The notes under the pieces: model-generated
Told to the model about the DNA's origin: nothing
Databases searched by the model: none
The model's input: only the letters and a program-made list of their open reading frames with translations
Program-made: the position numbers and the translations under genes
Part shown: positions 60,459 to 64,000 of the stretch, in pieces
Layout: each line of letters starts with the position of its first letter
Position numbering within the stretch: position 1 is the stretch's first letter
Assembly (NCBI RefSeq): GCF_900163645.1
Contig: NZ_FUKM01000007.1
Location: 1 to 64,000 of the forward strand
Length of the DNA: 64,000 nucleotides
Source: Halomonas citrativorans
GTDB taxonomy: Bacteria; Pseudomonadota; Gammaproteobacteria; Pseudomonadales; Halomonadaceae
Direction: 5' to 3'

Positions 60459-60679
60459 GGATGTCGTGTGTTGTGCTTGGCATTACAGGGCATTATTTGC
60501 TGAAATGTTGATGAACATTGACATTAGCGGGTCAGCTTAAAATGCGCAGCTAGCAAATACTCTCAAGTGTAGAGACAAACCCACTAATCCCTTACAATGC
60601 CTGAGCATTTAAATAGCATTGATTATCAAATTTTATCCGCACAGCGTTGGGCAAGGGAATGCGCCCGTTACAATCCCCG

Positions 60680-60691
60680 GGCGGTAGCGTG
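60680..60691 (+). promoter_or_regulatory. ops element (RfaH recruitment site, JUMPStart core)
   Basis: GGCGGTAGCGTG matches the 12-base ops sequence exactly and is followed by CCTTTTCTGG. In enterobacteria, RNA polymerase pauses at ops and recruits RfaH, which suppresses Rho termination in long surface-polysaccharide operons. It lies 18 bases before the first gene of the capsule export operon, in the transcribed leader and the correct orientation. The promoter itself should lie upstream, perhaps near TTGACA at about 60519, but no good -10 box is seen. Confidence 0.85.
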
Positions 60692-60709: not shown

Positions 60710-61120
60710 ATGCCAAAGACCTCATTTTTAGTAGTTCGACCGGCTCGCATGCTGCTAGCCGTGTTAAGTATGGCCGTAATAAGTGGGTGCGCTACGAGCT
60801 ACCCCTCTGGCAGCGCCTCCCAGCAGCAGCGCTATGTCCTTAATGATGACTCCGCAAAGCCCATTCTTGATGAAAGTGTAAACGGCTTTCTGGACCAAAC
60901 GCCTGCCGGTGGCGTTATCAGCGTGGCTGCAAGCCCATGGGGTGACAATGTCGAAATTGTGGCCGACGAACCCTACTTGGCAGCCAGTGGGCGTGAATGC
61001 CGTCGCCTACAAGTGATTGGCATGAGTGGTGAAGCACGCCGCGCGCTGGTATGCAAAGCGTCGTCAGAAGAGTGGGTAAACCAGCGAGTCATAACGCAAA
61101 CGGCAGAAGGGCGCCTTTAA
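60710..61120 (+). CDS. Small lipoprotein at the head of the capsule export operon
   Basis: 136 residues. A signal peptide ends in a lipobox (LSMAVISGC), so the mature protein starts at Cys28 and is lipid-anchored. The body is short, with VDEPYLAASGRECRRLQVIG-like sequence and a conserved-looking C-terminal part. I recall similar lipoproteins in capsule loci (DVU3141-like) but cannot confirm it. ATG at 60710 was chosen because the upstream frame runs through the ops element. It overlaps the next gene by one base (TAATG), so it probably works with the export channel. Confidence 0.75.
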   Translation: MPKTSFLVVRPARMLLAVLSMAVISGCATSYPSGSASQQQRYVLNDDSAKPILDESVNGFLDQTPAGGVISVAASPWGDNVEIVADEPYLAASGRECRRLQVIGMSGEARRALVCKASSEEWVNQRVITQTAEGRL

Positions 61121-62871
61121 TGAATCTCTTTGAAGCATACAAGCGCGCTTGCCTATCGAAAGCGCTGACTACCGTTTCGCTCGTCTTTTTGGTCGTGTTC
61201 TGTGCGCCTGCCTCCGCCCAGATTATCAGCCTGCCGGACGACACCCTTTCAGGCCAGTCAGGCCAGCGCAGCAGTCAGGCGCCATCGTCTCAAAGCCAGC
61301 AGCAAGGCCAGGTAGACGACATGCCCCGTGCCGACTGGCGCAGTGGCACTTATGGCCCCATTGCCACACCGCCCCGCGACCCGGATGCGCTGCCCCCCTT
61401 TGGATATAACCTCTTCACAGGTGGTTTTCGTGGCGCCATGGGCGATGGCTTGAACGCCGACTACCGCATTAAGCCAGGCGACCAAGTCACCGTGCGTGCC
61501 TGGGGCGCGTTTGAGTTAGACCGCGTGCTGCCAGTTGACGCCCAGGGCAATATCTTCATCCCTGGTTCTGGCCCCTTGAATGTGGAAGGCCAGAGTAGCC
61601 AAGAGGTCGATAACAGCGTTCGCCGCGCGATTACCTCGGTATACCCTGACAACGTTGAGGTTTACACCAATCTGCAAGGCGTCCAGCCCGTTGCCGTTTA
61701 TGTAACAGGTTATGTGCAAAACCCCGGACGCTATGCCGGTACGCCCGATGACTCGCTGCTCTACTTTCTTGATCAGGCAGGCGGGATCGAGCAAGACCTG
61801 GGCAGCTACCGCCAAGTACGCGTAATGCGTAACGATCGCCTGGTTGCAACGGTGGACCTCTACGACTTTTTACTTAACGGCACGATTGCACGCCCGCAAT
61901 TCCAGGACGGTGACACTATCGTTGTGGAAGAGCGCGGCCCGGCGATTGCGGTTACTGGAGACGTGCACCGCGAGATGCGCTATGAGCTGACCAGTAACAC
62001 GCTTAGCGGTGCCGAGCTTTTAAACCTGGCGCGATTGCGAAGCGGTGTCTCCAACGTGCTGCTGCGTGGTCATCGTACCGATGGTCCTATCGCCCACTAT
62101 TTCCCCGTCGCCCTGTTTGCTGGCCAAACCATTCGCAGTGGCGATGAAGTCACCTTCACTGCCGACCAGCGCAATGAAACTATCGTGGTTGAAATAGAAG
62201 GCAGCTACTTCGGGCCTTCGCTCTACGCCTTGCCGCGCAATGCTCGCCTAAGTGAACTGCTTGATGCCATTGCCGTGCCACAAGGGCTTACCGCCGTTGA
62301 AAGCGTTTCCCTGCGCCGTGAAAGCGTCAAGGAGCAGCAGGAACAGGCGCTGGAAGACAGCCTACGCCGCCTGGAAACCACCTACCTGGGTGCCACCTCA
62401 CGCACCGACGAAGAAGCCCAGATTCGTCTACGTGAAGCCGAGCTGATTGAACGCTTTATTGAACGCGCAGGTGAACTTGAGCCCAGTGGCCGCCTGGTAG
62501 TCGCGCAAGGCGGCAAGATTTCAGATATCCGCCTGCAAGACGGCGATGTCATTACCATTCCTGAAATCAGCGATTCGGTTCTGATCAGCGGTGAAATCGT
62601 GGTGCCCCAGGCCGTGGTGTATCGCCCCGGTCTGAGCGTGATCGACTACGTCAACGGCGCCGGTGGCTTTACCGAGCGTGCCGATGAGAGCCAGATTCTA
62701 CTGGTGCGCCAAAACGGTGCTGTGGAACACGCGCGTAATTCACCGCTACGCCCGGGGGATGAAATCCTCGTAATGCCCAAGGCGCCGGTACACAACTTGC
62801 AGCTGGCTTCTACGCTAACGCAGATCCTCTTCCAGATCGCCGTGACCACGCGCGTCGCGCTGGACCTGTAA
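61120..62871 (+). CDS. Polysaccharide export outer-membrane protein (KpsD/Wza superfamily)
   Basis: 583 residues with a signal peptide of about 33 residues (ending ASAQ) and a Ser/Gln-rich linker. The polysaccharide-export domain begins at about 112 (LNADYRIKPGDQVTVRAWG), and SLBB-type repeats follow (YVTGYVQNPGRY; VLISGEIVVPQAVVYRPG). No lipobox is present. In size and arrangement it resembles KpsD, the periplasmic/outer-membrane component of ABC-transporter-dependent capsule export, more than Wza. The following genes, a KpsM-type permease and a KpsE-type protein, support this. Confidence 0.88.
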   Translation: MNLFEAYKRACLSKALTTVSLVFLVVFCAPASAQIISLPDDTLSGQSGQRSSQAPSSQSQQQGQVDDMPRADWRSGTYGPIATPPRDPDALPPFGYNLFTGGFRGAMGDGLNADYRIKPGDQVTVRAWGAFELDRVLPVDAQGNIFIPGSGPLNVEGQSSQEVDNSVRRAITSVYPDNVEVYTNLQGVQPVAVYVTGYVQNPGRYAGTPDDSLLYFLDQAGGIEQDLGSYRQVRVMRNDRLVATVDLYDFLLNGTIARPQFQDGDTIVVEERGPAIAVTGDVHREMRYELTSNTLSGAELLNLARLRSGVSNVLLRGHRTDGPIAHYFPVALFAGQTIRSGDEVTFTADQRNETIVVEIEGSYFGPSLYALPRNARLSELLDAIAVPQGLTAVESVSLRRESVKEQQEQALEDSLRRLETTYLGATSRTDEEAQIRLREAELIERFIERAGELEPSGRLVVAQGGKISDIRLQDGDVITIPEISDSVLISGEIVVPQAVVYRPGLSVIDYVNGAGGFTERADESQILLVRQNGAVEHARNSPLRPGDEILVMPKAPVHNLQLASTLTQILFQIAVTTRVALDL

Positions 62872-62903
62872 TGAGTGGTTGGTGAGTCGCTAAGGGGGGC
62901 CTT

Positions 62904-62958
62904 GTAGCGCGCGGTAACGAGCGCAGCGAGGCGCCTGCCGCCCGAAGCCGCACCCGCA
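62904..62958 (+). repeat. Single variant REP-like unit inside the capsule operon
   Basis: Starts GTAGCGCGCGGTAACGAGCG and ends in CACCCGC, so it has the ends of the array units but a longer interior with GCCTGCCGCCCG. It lies in the 137-base gap between the KpsD-like and KpsM-like genes and could form a strong RNA hairpin that affects downstream expression. Confidence 0.75.
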
Positions 62959-63008
62959 CATGCAAAAATTCATGACAAACAACACGAACTTAAAGGCGGC
63001 AACCCGTC

Positions 63009-63818
63009 ATGGCTGATACTCAAACAGCACGCCGGGGCGCCCGCACGCCTTGGCAAGTGACCCGCAGCGTGTGGTACGCCATGTTCATGCGTGAAGCTAT
63101 TTCACGCACCATGGCCGACCGAATGGGCTGGTTCTGGATGATCTTTGAACCGGTCGCCATGGTAGGAATCATGGTGGCCATTCGCAGCTTTATCCGTGGT
63201 GATCGCTTAGTCGTTAACGCACCCTTTATTCCCTGGATGATTACCGGTTTATTGGGATTCTTTCTGGTGCGTGAAGGGATGATACGAGGCATGGGCGCTA
63301 TCAATGCAAATAAGGCGCTGTTTGCCTACCGTCAGGTGCAGCCTGTAGACCCGGTACTTACGCGCAACTTTCTTGAAGGGATGCTACGCACCTTTATCTT
63401 CCTGATTTTTATTATAGGCGGGCTAATGCTCGACCAGGAAATGTACCCGGATAATGCTGTTCGCGCGATGGCCGCCTGGTTCTCGCTCTGGTGTTTAGGC
63501 TTGGGGCTGGGGCTAGTTACTTCTGTTTCCGCAACGTTAGTGCCTGAGGTAGGGCGCGTCATCAGCATGATTTCTTTGCCGCTGCTGATTATTTCTGGCG
63601 TCATTCTACCGCTCAACAGCTTGCCGCACTGGCTGCTTGAATACCTGATGCTAAACCCCATCCCGCACGGTTTGGAAACACTGCGGCTGGGCTTTTTTGA
63701 AAACTACCATGTGGTGCCTGGCACCAGCATGCTCTATTTCTGGCTATTTACGTTTTCGCTTATTGCGCTAGGGCTTCTTATGCACCTGCGCTTTATTGAC
63801 CGTTTAAAGGCAAGCTAA
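63009..63818 (+). CDS. Capsule polysaccharide ABC-transporter permease (KpsM-like)
   Basis: 269 residues with six membrane helices and the ABC-2 layout. MGWFWMIFEPVAMVGIM near residue 40 and the C-terminal LLEYLMLNPIPHGLETLR are typical of KpsM/BexB-type polysaccharide exporters. It would move the completed, lipid-linked capsule polymer across the inner membrane with an ATPase subunit (KpsT) not visible here. The KpsE-type gene starts 3 bases after its stop. Confidence 0.88.
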   Translation: MADTQTARRGARTPWQVTRSVWYAMFMREAISRTMADRMGWFWMIFEPVAMVGIMVAIRSFIRGDRLVVNAPFIPWMITGLLGFFLVREGMIRGMGAINANKALFAYRQVQPVDPVLTRNFLEGMLRTFIFLIFIIGGLMLDQEMYPDNAVRAMAAWFSLWCLGLGLGLVTSVSATLVPEVGRVISMISLPLLIISGVILPLNSLPHWLLEYLMLNPIPHGLETLRLGFFENYHVVPGTSMLYFWLFTFSLIALGLLMHLRFIDRLKAS

Positions 63819-63821
63819 TTC

Positions 63822-64000
63822 ATGCAATCGTCTCTTCGTCGCTTTGGCACCCAATACCCTCAGTGGGCTATTGCCCTTGCCGCAATACTTTTGGTCTCCT
63901 TCTACTGGTTTATTTGGGCACAAGCCCGCTATGTATCCAGTGCAACCGTGGTGCTTGAAAGCCCTCAGGTAGCAGCGCCTGAGATCAGCTTTGCCTCGTT
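63822..64000 (+). CDS. Capsule export inner-membrane protein, KpsE/Wzz-like (cut by window edge)
   Basis: Only 59 residues are visible. A short cytoplasmic start is followed by a membrane helix at about 14-33 (WAIALAAILLVSFYWFIWAQ) and the beginning of a periplasmic domain (ARYVSSATVVLESPQ), a pattern typical of KpsE/BexC/Wzz co-polymerase-type proteins. It would link the ABC transporter to the export channel. Its position after the KpsM-like gene supports this call. Confidence 0.75.
   Translation, partial: MQSSLRRFGTQYPQWAIALAAILLVSFYWFIWAQARYVSSATVVLESPQVAAPEISFAS

Follow-up and report, generated by a model that had tools for sequence, protein, structure and literature searches.

The ops element, a 12-nucleotide (nt) signal at which RfaH, a specialised paralogue of NusG, is recruited, is described in the leaders of enterobacterial polysaccharide operons such as rfb, waaQ and wza, where it belongs to the JUMPstart elements covered by the model RF01707. 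Passages of PMC5995543 present ops as a backtracking pause, which RfaH joins at C9, G10 and U11, its residues K10, H20, R23 and R73 being in direct contact with the element, and a conserved stem-loop among JUMPstart elements is mentioned in a passage of PMC2864571. In this study we analysed a 64,000-nt stretch of Halomonas citrativorans DNA (contig NZ_FUKM01000007.1, positions 1 to 64,000 of the forward strand), referred to as the window, where an ops element, GGCGGTAGCGTG, is located at 60680-60691 (+) in the leader of an operon for a lipoprotein and KpsD-, KpsM- and KpsE-like capsule export proteins. This leader is probably a composite RfaH-loading signal, in which ops and an RNA pseudoknot formed immediately upstream would act together in recruitment of RfaH and anti-termination through the kps operon.

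The locus has several features in common with the enterobacterial ops/JUMPstart leaders: the ops 12-mer is identical and belongs to the non-template strand in the leader of a polysaccharide operon, the genome also encodes RfaH, and a predicted stem ends about 1-2 nt 5' of ops; the crossing topology proposed below can likewise be fitted to many enteric elements. In contrast, neither stem is related in sequence to its enteric counterpart, stem 1 being GGGC:GCCC here and CAGY:RCTG in enterics, and RF01707 models one hairpin. What supports a composite signal in the sequence itself is the exact ops and its conservation, a true RfaH, the restriction of the element to those genomes of the genus that have RfaH, an upstream block that is conserved as well, and the covariation seen in its first stem. 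From these features we infer recruitment, a second stem in the window leader and a function for the RNA fold, and anti-termination of the kps operon would follow by analogy with the E. coli system. RfaH/ops control of capsule export would thereby be extended to a family outside enterics. In the open-licence literature, searched by titles and beginnings of abstracts, we found no work on such a signal for RfaH in Halomonas and none on a pseudoknot in connection with JUMPstart or RfaH; Halomonas is not mentioned in the excerpted passages of PMC7593976, and a term search of PMC13015549 returned no match for Halomonas, JUMPstart or pseudoknot.

Conservation of ops and of the block preceding it

An exact ops 12-mer in the leader of the lipoprotein/KpsD/KpsM/KpsE operon had been claimed in the initial annotation, and this was confirmed. 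The 12-nt consensus, with TG at positions 11-12, is matched without mismatch at 60680-60691, which is the single exact copy in the window (12-mer search), 18 nt before ATG 60710 of the gene for a DUF5061 lipoprotein. The reading frame of the latter is open from TTG 60647, and alignments of most relatives begin at ATG 60710. The element stands on the non-template strand, 3' of a promoter-like site. Sites with up to two mismatches number 6 in the window against a chance mean of 7.2. In the whole genome the 12-mer is not enriched over the reversed control when one mismatch is allowed (40 vs 44), nor is the 8-mer GGCGGTAG (238 vs 330); other ops copies in the genome, for which that annotation had suggested a search, amount to one further exact copy, so that the total does not exceed the control (2 vs 2). 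Genome-wide counts are thus uninformative and the case rests on position and conservation. Equal numbers of exact copies in genome and control are what a chance match would give, an explanation that is practically out of the question and was refuted by the genus leaders, 50 of 51 of which carry the 12-mer at the same place.

Among 82 genomes of the genus 51 encode a KpsD homologue, and the exact 12-mer precedes the same lipoprotein gene in all of these except G014, where the last ops base is changed. When aligned on ops, the genus leaders present in order a block, GTAGGGCAAGGGAATnCGCCCGttanAATCCCTG, then ops, CCTTTT, TGGAA and ATG. Outside the genus, 60 of 74 KpsD places in the family were taken for analysis, and ops was found in 48 of them (47 exact, one mismatch in G149), 17 times in leaders and 31 times inside kpsD. 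The expected conservation of the 12-mer in leaders of relatives is therefore borne out, and on this basis we regard ops as a real, selected site. All 12 KpsD stretches devoid of ops come from genomes with RfaH above cut-off, which rules out absence of RfaH as the reason within the family. In 10 of the 12 (10 of the 11 read over a longer stretch) an exact ops is present farther 5', ahead of a cysDN-type gene run, and heads the operon to which the more distal KpsD gene belongs; the element is missing near kpsD because of its position in the operon, ahead of the upstream cys run. In the two stretches left, the sequence ended early (G237) or lay at a contig edge (G126). KpsD relatives on plasmids all have less than 60% identity (44 records).

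The block upstream of ops ends 1-2 nt 5' of it and is conserved nearly as well as ops itself. Its arrangement is that of a GGGC:GCCC stem 1, in the loop of which GGGA can pair with TCCC located just 5' of ops, as follows:

60649..60652, + strand: 5' arm of stem 1, GGGC, of the proposed H-type RNA pseudoknot (alignment and pair counts)
60655..60658, + strand: 5' arm of stem 2, GGGA, within the stem 1 loop (alignment, pair counts, scored search)
60663..60666, + strand: 3' arm of stem 1, GCCC (alignment and pair counts)
60674..60677, + strand: 3' arm of stem 2, TCCC, ending 2 nt 5' of ops; the outer fifth pair would be A-C and is unformed (alignment, pair counts, scored search)
60680..60691, + strand: ops element GGCGGTAGCGTG, predicted RfaH recruitment and pause site (exact match, conserved in genus leaders)

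At every position of stem 1, 79-80 of the 80 unique elements form a pair when the register is set element by element, and the pair types GC/AT, GC/GT/AT/CG and CG/AT/TG are represented. Counted in fixed columns, two-sided changes occur in three of four stem 1 pairs and two of five stem 2 pairs, and 91.8% of cells are paired, compared with at most 59.3% when the arms are slid. The inner A-T pair of stem 2 forms in 75 of the 80 elements. Both stems vary outside the genus, as exemplified by GGGT:ACCC with GGGA:TCCC (L223), GGGC:GCCC with GAGA:TCTC (L222, L224), GCGTC:GACGC with CGGGA:TCCCG (L226) and GCGA:TCGC with AAGG:CCTT (L236).

A scored search for pseudoknots (score of at least 20, ending 1-2 nt 5' of ops), controlled by dinucleotide shuffles and other offsets and uncorrected for kinship, detected the fold in 73 of 77 unique family leaders, in 4.1% of their shuffles and in 2, 0 and 0 cases at other offsets. 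It was also present in 12 of 18 weak matches (score 21) from other genera and families (5.3% of shuffles) and in 2 of 11 non-enteric pattern matches listed (11.4% of shuffles). None of the 28 sites of the same genome with one mismatch to ops, of which 10 are on the minus strand and 23 within open frames of at least 200 codons, has it (0/28; 7.9% of shuffles), and the second exact ops of the genome (L004:1501-1512, G000:C56:259924), placed inside a 522-amino-acid (aa) open reading frame (ORF), scores 18. The block RNA is probably folded, and the form proposed for it is an H-type pseudoknot, stem 1 being supported by covariation and stem 2 weakly within the genus and better in distant relatives.

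The block could alternatively be a promoter, its TAYAAT-like stretch 5' of ops serving as a -10 box and ops standing at about +1. Such a role is suggested by TACAAT at 60669-60674 of the window leader, by TAnnnT at that place in 29 of 51 genus leaders, by GTAGGG at a distance of 17 nt on its 5' side in 38 of 51, and by resemblance of window positions 60646-60674 (GTAGGG, 17 nt and TAYAAT in many genus leaders) to a GTAGAG-N17-TACAAT pair found farther upstream:

60570..60575, + strand: -35-like hexamer TAGAGA of a putative operon promoter (promoter scan; GTAGAG conserved in genus leaders)
60593..60598, + strand: -10-like hexamer TACAAT (promoter scan; conserved in genus leaders)

We disfavour this explanation and consider it quite improbable, as outside the genus TAnnnT is retained in only 4 of 35 leader-type elements with the rest of the block kept, as the first two -10 positions vary (T in 37 and A in 37 of 51) and AATCCC hardly does, and as the other promoter-like pair is conserved 80-95 nt upstream. 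The TACAAT of that pair is present in 44 of 51 genus leaders and ends 80-95 nt 5' of ops, so that ops would sit about 75 nt into the leader. According to the composite signal proposed here, RNA polymerase would start at this distance from ops and transcribe the block, whose RNA would fold into a compact pseudoknot ending 2 nt 5' of ops.

RfaH and its association with the element

The 3.98-Mb genome (65 contigs) has two NusG-family genes, one of which is the housekeeping NusG gene, adjoining secE and the L11 gene. The second protein passes TIGR01955 (164 bits, cut-off 144.5) and NF006534 (136.7 bits, cut-off 124) and stays below the cut-offs of the NusG, LoaP and UpxY models; judged by these scores it is a true RfaH, and the prediction that an RfaH-type NusG paralogue must be encoded elsewhere has come true. 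It keeps residues K10, R16, H20, Q24, E48 and R73, counted along the alignment with E. coli RfaH. In the genus RfaH was found in 72 of 82 genomes (71 above the equivalog cut-off), including 51 of 51 with KpsD.

The rfaH gene is the last of a run (L033:2592-17522, G000:C9) composed of genes for two Capsule_synth proteins, of which the second is KpsS-like (270 bits, missing the cut-off of 600), an SDR, a sulfatase-fold protein, a 2452-aa polyketide synthase (PKS) and a BioF-like enzyme. This row presumably resembles the rhizobial rkp capsule genes, where two Capsule_synth, SDR, sulfatase-fold, PKS and BioF-like genes are also consecutive; unlike them, the run ends here with rfaH. It may represent an rkp-like lipid or linker pathway. 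Location of the gene within a long polysaccharide/PKS operon is a feature shared with the cluster-encoded NusG paralogues TaA, LoaP and UpxY; unlike LoaP and UpxY, the protein described here scores as RfaH and under their cut-offs, and the ops-led operon is separate. In G013 the ops-led kps operon is about 40 kb from the polyketide synthase/BioF-like/rfaH genes and convergent with them. No ops with up to one mismatch was found in the leader of the rkp-like run.

The distribution of the element was followed with a covariance model, R1, that comprises both the block and ops, E < 1e-10 being taken as a strong match. Such matches were obtained in 62 of 72 RfaH-positive and 0 of 10 RfaH-negative genomes of the genus (Fisher p 9e-8, kinship uncorrected), and in a 390-genome sample of the order in 10 of 18 family genomes and 0 of 372 others. 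R1 elements head various polysaccharide operons, not KpsD operons alone: some runs contain genes for a CitMHS transporter, an inositol-phosphatase (CysQ-like), a PAPS_reduct protein (CysD-like) and a GTPase-APS-kinase protein (CysNC-like), and other clusters start with Wzz, UDP-GlcNAc 2-epimerase or dehydratase genes (named by Pfam on L186, L205, L208 and L210, and by eye at the remaining loci).

Some ops-pseudoknot elements occur in pairs 0.3-7 kb apart (L186:1496 and 4502; L187:1185 and 1503; L188; L205; L206; L211), and mostly stand at the head of a cys run and of a Wzz or a sugar operon. Paired elements located just 5' of a divergent rfaH were seen in G017, G024 and G006.

In the composite signal as we see it, polymerase that has transcribed the block would pause within ops, the non-template strand exposing the 12-nt element, and RfaH supplied from the rkp-like capsule operon would bind ops, displace NusG on the polymerase, carry the enzyme through the long kps operon and recruit ribosomes. 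The RNA fold, on leaving polymerase, would touch the exit channel at the ops pause, and its most likely function would be that of a brake on backtracking, which would hold the register ready for RfaH. The proposed fold resembles in its spacing the his pause hairpin, for which this distance is 11 nt. In vitro ops works on its own, which, with the tssH-type leaders described below, argues that the fold would tune recruitment rather than enable it. If the fold is true, conservation of JUMPstart 5' of ops, known for a long time, gains an explanation, and it becomes possible to test how the pause at ops persists until a scarce factor arrives.

Enteric leaders and ops inside kpsD

Across the class RF01707 matched 2 of 369 genomes, weakly, and none above cut-off, which makes it unusable for collection of elements. 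On the window leader it gives 22 bits at 60642-60691, short of the gathering score of 35, and the leader is therefore not filed as its member. The K-12 rfb and waaQ leaders match at 60 and 55 bits, respectively, and the waaQ JUMPstart match lies within the span annotated for RirA, an sRNA from the waaQ leader of E. coli (L246:14167-14239). In JUMPstart-type elements the 3' end of the stem is about 1 nt 5' of ops; the proposed stem 2 ends 2 nt away here, and 1 nt where the outer pair forms.

The enteric set consisted of 82 sites and included a pattern scan with at least 80 loci, the pattern of which fixed the 3' arm of stem 2 and left stem 1 free; L292 was too near the sequence end. After setting aside 11 non-enteric and 10 tssH-type sites as sets of their own, 61 were left, and removal of 3 without stem 2 and 8 duplicates gave 50 distinct elements. 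L312, labelled Arthrobacter, was counted as enteric and L301, labelled Chryseobacterium, in the tssH class, both labels looking like contamination. Among the 50 elements listed, a 5' CAGY pairs with RCTG inside the hairpin in 171 of 200 cells, compared with at most 132 when slid, and this crossing stem is complete (four pairs) in 34 of 50 (shuffle mean 30.3; 2.7% of shuffles reach 34). Its first pair is CG, TG, AT or TA and is unpaired in 15 of the 50 listed (C-A 8, G-G 3, G-A 2, A-G 2), and its fourth is TG, CG or TA, unpaired in 5; by eye, L267, L276, L305 and L316 would pair CAGC:GCTG with a shorter spacer. The scored search, for which the 3' arm of stem 2 was fixed by the pattern, detected a pseudoknot in 40 of 59 enteric elements listed (6.4% of shuffles; 2, 6 and 1 at other offsets). 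These results are suggestive of a crossing stem overlooked in enteric JUMPstart elements.

Ten of the enteric matches listed (L256, L264, L271, L279, L286, L290, L296, L301, L328 and L329) form a tssH-type class. All ten have an exact ops 6-32 nt 5' of an ORF start, both ORFs checked encode TssH, and the leaders have their own conserved upstream sequence, ACCTTATGGGC..CGG..CGGCC. They are similar to the window leader in that an exact ops stands shortly 5' of the first gene, and differ in this gene being tssH of type VI secretion and in that the scored search detects no pseudoknot in them. A bulged version of a pseudoknot might form in tssH-type leaders, as judged by eye.

The 31 in-gene sites mentioned above come from 27 genomes of five sister genera. 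In every one ops coincides with codons 14-18 of the kpsD signal peptide, and in 30 it is exact; an example is MKRLSVIFRAMCLVAVACLNANFAHAQ in L194 (L194:2792-2850), coding for a Poly_export/SLBB protein. In G122 and G084 the kpsD frame is also open farther upstream. The codons are GTG (30/31), then GCG, GTA and GCG (31/31 each), then TG followed by C, T or G; the final codon has changed from Cys to Trp in three cases, retaining the TG of ops, and in the rest of five such kpsD genes GTA makes up 14.7% of Val codons. The synonymous sites of in-gene ops are frozen. A hairpin ending 1-2 nt 5' of ops is present in 23 of 23 distinct in-gene elements (8.0% of shuffles). Across the order the in-gene pattern was matched in 2 of 390 genomes, of which G084 is a true case; in the other, G580 (L243), ops is near the start of a 128-aa ORF. 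According to passages of PMC9765446, 34 of 42 ops sites in E. coli CFT073 are coding and the RfaH signal is seen at 8 leader sites only, which makes conserved sites within kpsD unexpected. Such in-gene sites call into question the rule by which ops is functional solely in untranslated leaders. Together with the pseudoknot-like block abutting ops and with rfaH closing a capsule operon, they go beyond the initial annotation.

A broader proposal, which we put forward tentatively while leaning somewhat against it, is that ops would supply only the DNA part of a bipartite RfaH-loading signal, completed by a nascent-RNA fold at the exit channel. In most enteric JUMPstarts, as in leaders of this and other families of the order, the fold would be an H-type pseudoknot; in the five genera where the signal would have moved into signal-peptide codons of kpsD, recruiting RfaH to a translated gene, it would be a plain hairpin. 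The tssH-type leaders would be excepted.

Several observations weigh against a composite signal. The three G-C positions of stem 2 are paired in 79-80 of 80 elements and are nearly invariant GGG:CCC, and its outer pair, absent in the window leader, is present in 41 of the 80, a number that does not stand out clearly from shuffles, 10% of which attain it. A nested fold of the leader was rejected, since RNAfold, which is blind to pseudoknots, finds none more stable than in shuffles (z +1.57), and what it prefers is a rival hairpin using the first ops bases. In the alignment with E. coli RfaH, N replaces the contact residue R23 and NWRP stands in place of the HTTT stretch. Ten RfaH-positive genomes (G019, G038, G039, G044, G051, G056, G062, G063, G072 and G081) lack a strong R1 match, two of these assemblies being less than 72% complete. 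A pseudoknot was found by the same scored search in 0 of 7 distinct tssH-type leaders listed, and passages of PMC9765446 report tssH among the targets of RfaH in E. coli, so that ops can work without the fold.

The hairpin favoured by RNAfold in the window leader would fit an RNA switch, in which the GCCC arm has two alternative partners, the upstream GGGC, giving the pseudoknot, and a GGGC made of one base and the first ops bases, giving the hairpin, and some further influence decides between them. We regard a switch as unlikely, because changed arms (TTCCC, ACCC, GACGC, GACGG) track the upstream arm and not ops, and because the upstream arm is transcribed first. It is a distinct possibility, although not our preferred one, that ops is an ordinary one and that the block is a sequence signal (a protein-binding site, a part of the pause or a translation element) which merely looks pairable. 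Such a signal would agree with the near invariance of the GGG/CCC columns of stem 2 in the genus, where its variation is mostly G-C to G-U, with in-gene elements being a plain hairpin (pseudoknot score of at least 20 in 4 of 23 distinct, 11.3% of shuffles) and with tssH-type leaders which, among the matches listed, have neither hairpin nor pseudoknot by search. It is opposed by compensating changes in stem 1, by two-sided changes of stem 2 outside the genus (GAGA:TCTC, CGGGA:TCCCG, CAGGA:TCCTG, GAGG:CCTC, AAGG:CCTT) and by absence of the pseudoknot at all one-mismatch ops sites of the same genome.

Genes of the operon and repeats

The genes placed behind the leader are as follows:

60710..61120, + strand: DUF5061 (17-kDa common-antigen type) lipoprotein, first gene of the operon (Pfam PF16587, 54.9 bits; start codon by homology)
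61120..62871, + strand: KpsD-like polysaccharide export protein, Poly_export, SLBB (Pfam PF02563, PF22461, PF10531)
63009..63818, + strand: KpsM-like ABC-2 permease (NF050053, 125 bits, below the cut-off of 300; PF01061 above cut-off)
63822..64000, + strand: KpsE-like inner-membrane export protein, continuing beyond the window end (TIGR01010, 279 bits, below the cut-off of 437.5, scored on L034:18523-19620)

As KpsM (125/300 bits) and KpsE (279/437.5) score below the curated cut-offs while the Pfam domains of KpsD and KpsM are above theirs, the operon is, by model scores, Kps-like and not Group 2 Kps proper.

Repeat-like DNA (TGTAGCGCGCGGTAACG..) occupies positions 62895-62990 of the window, between kpsD and kpsM. 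Two copies resembling it, accompanied by short GTGAAGG repeats, are located at the contig end after kpsE (L034:19691-19914), where repeat-like DNA has perhaps caused the contig break.
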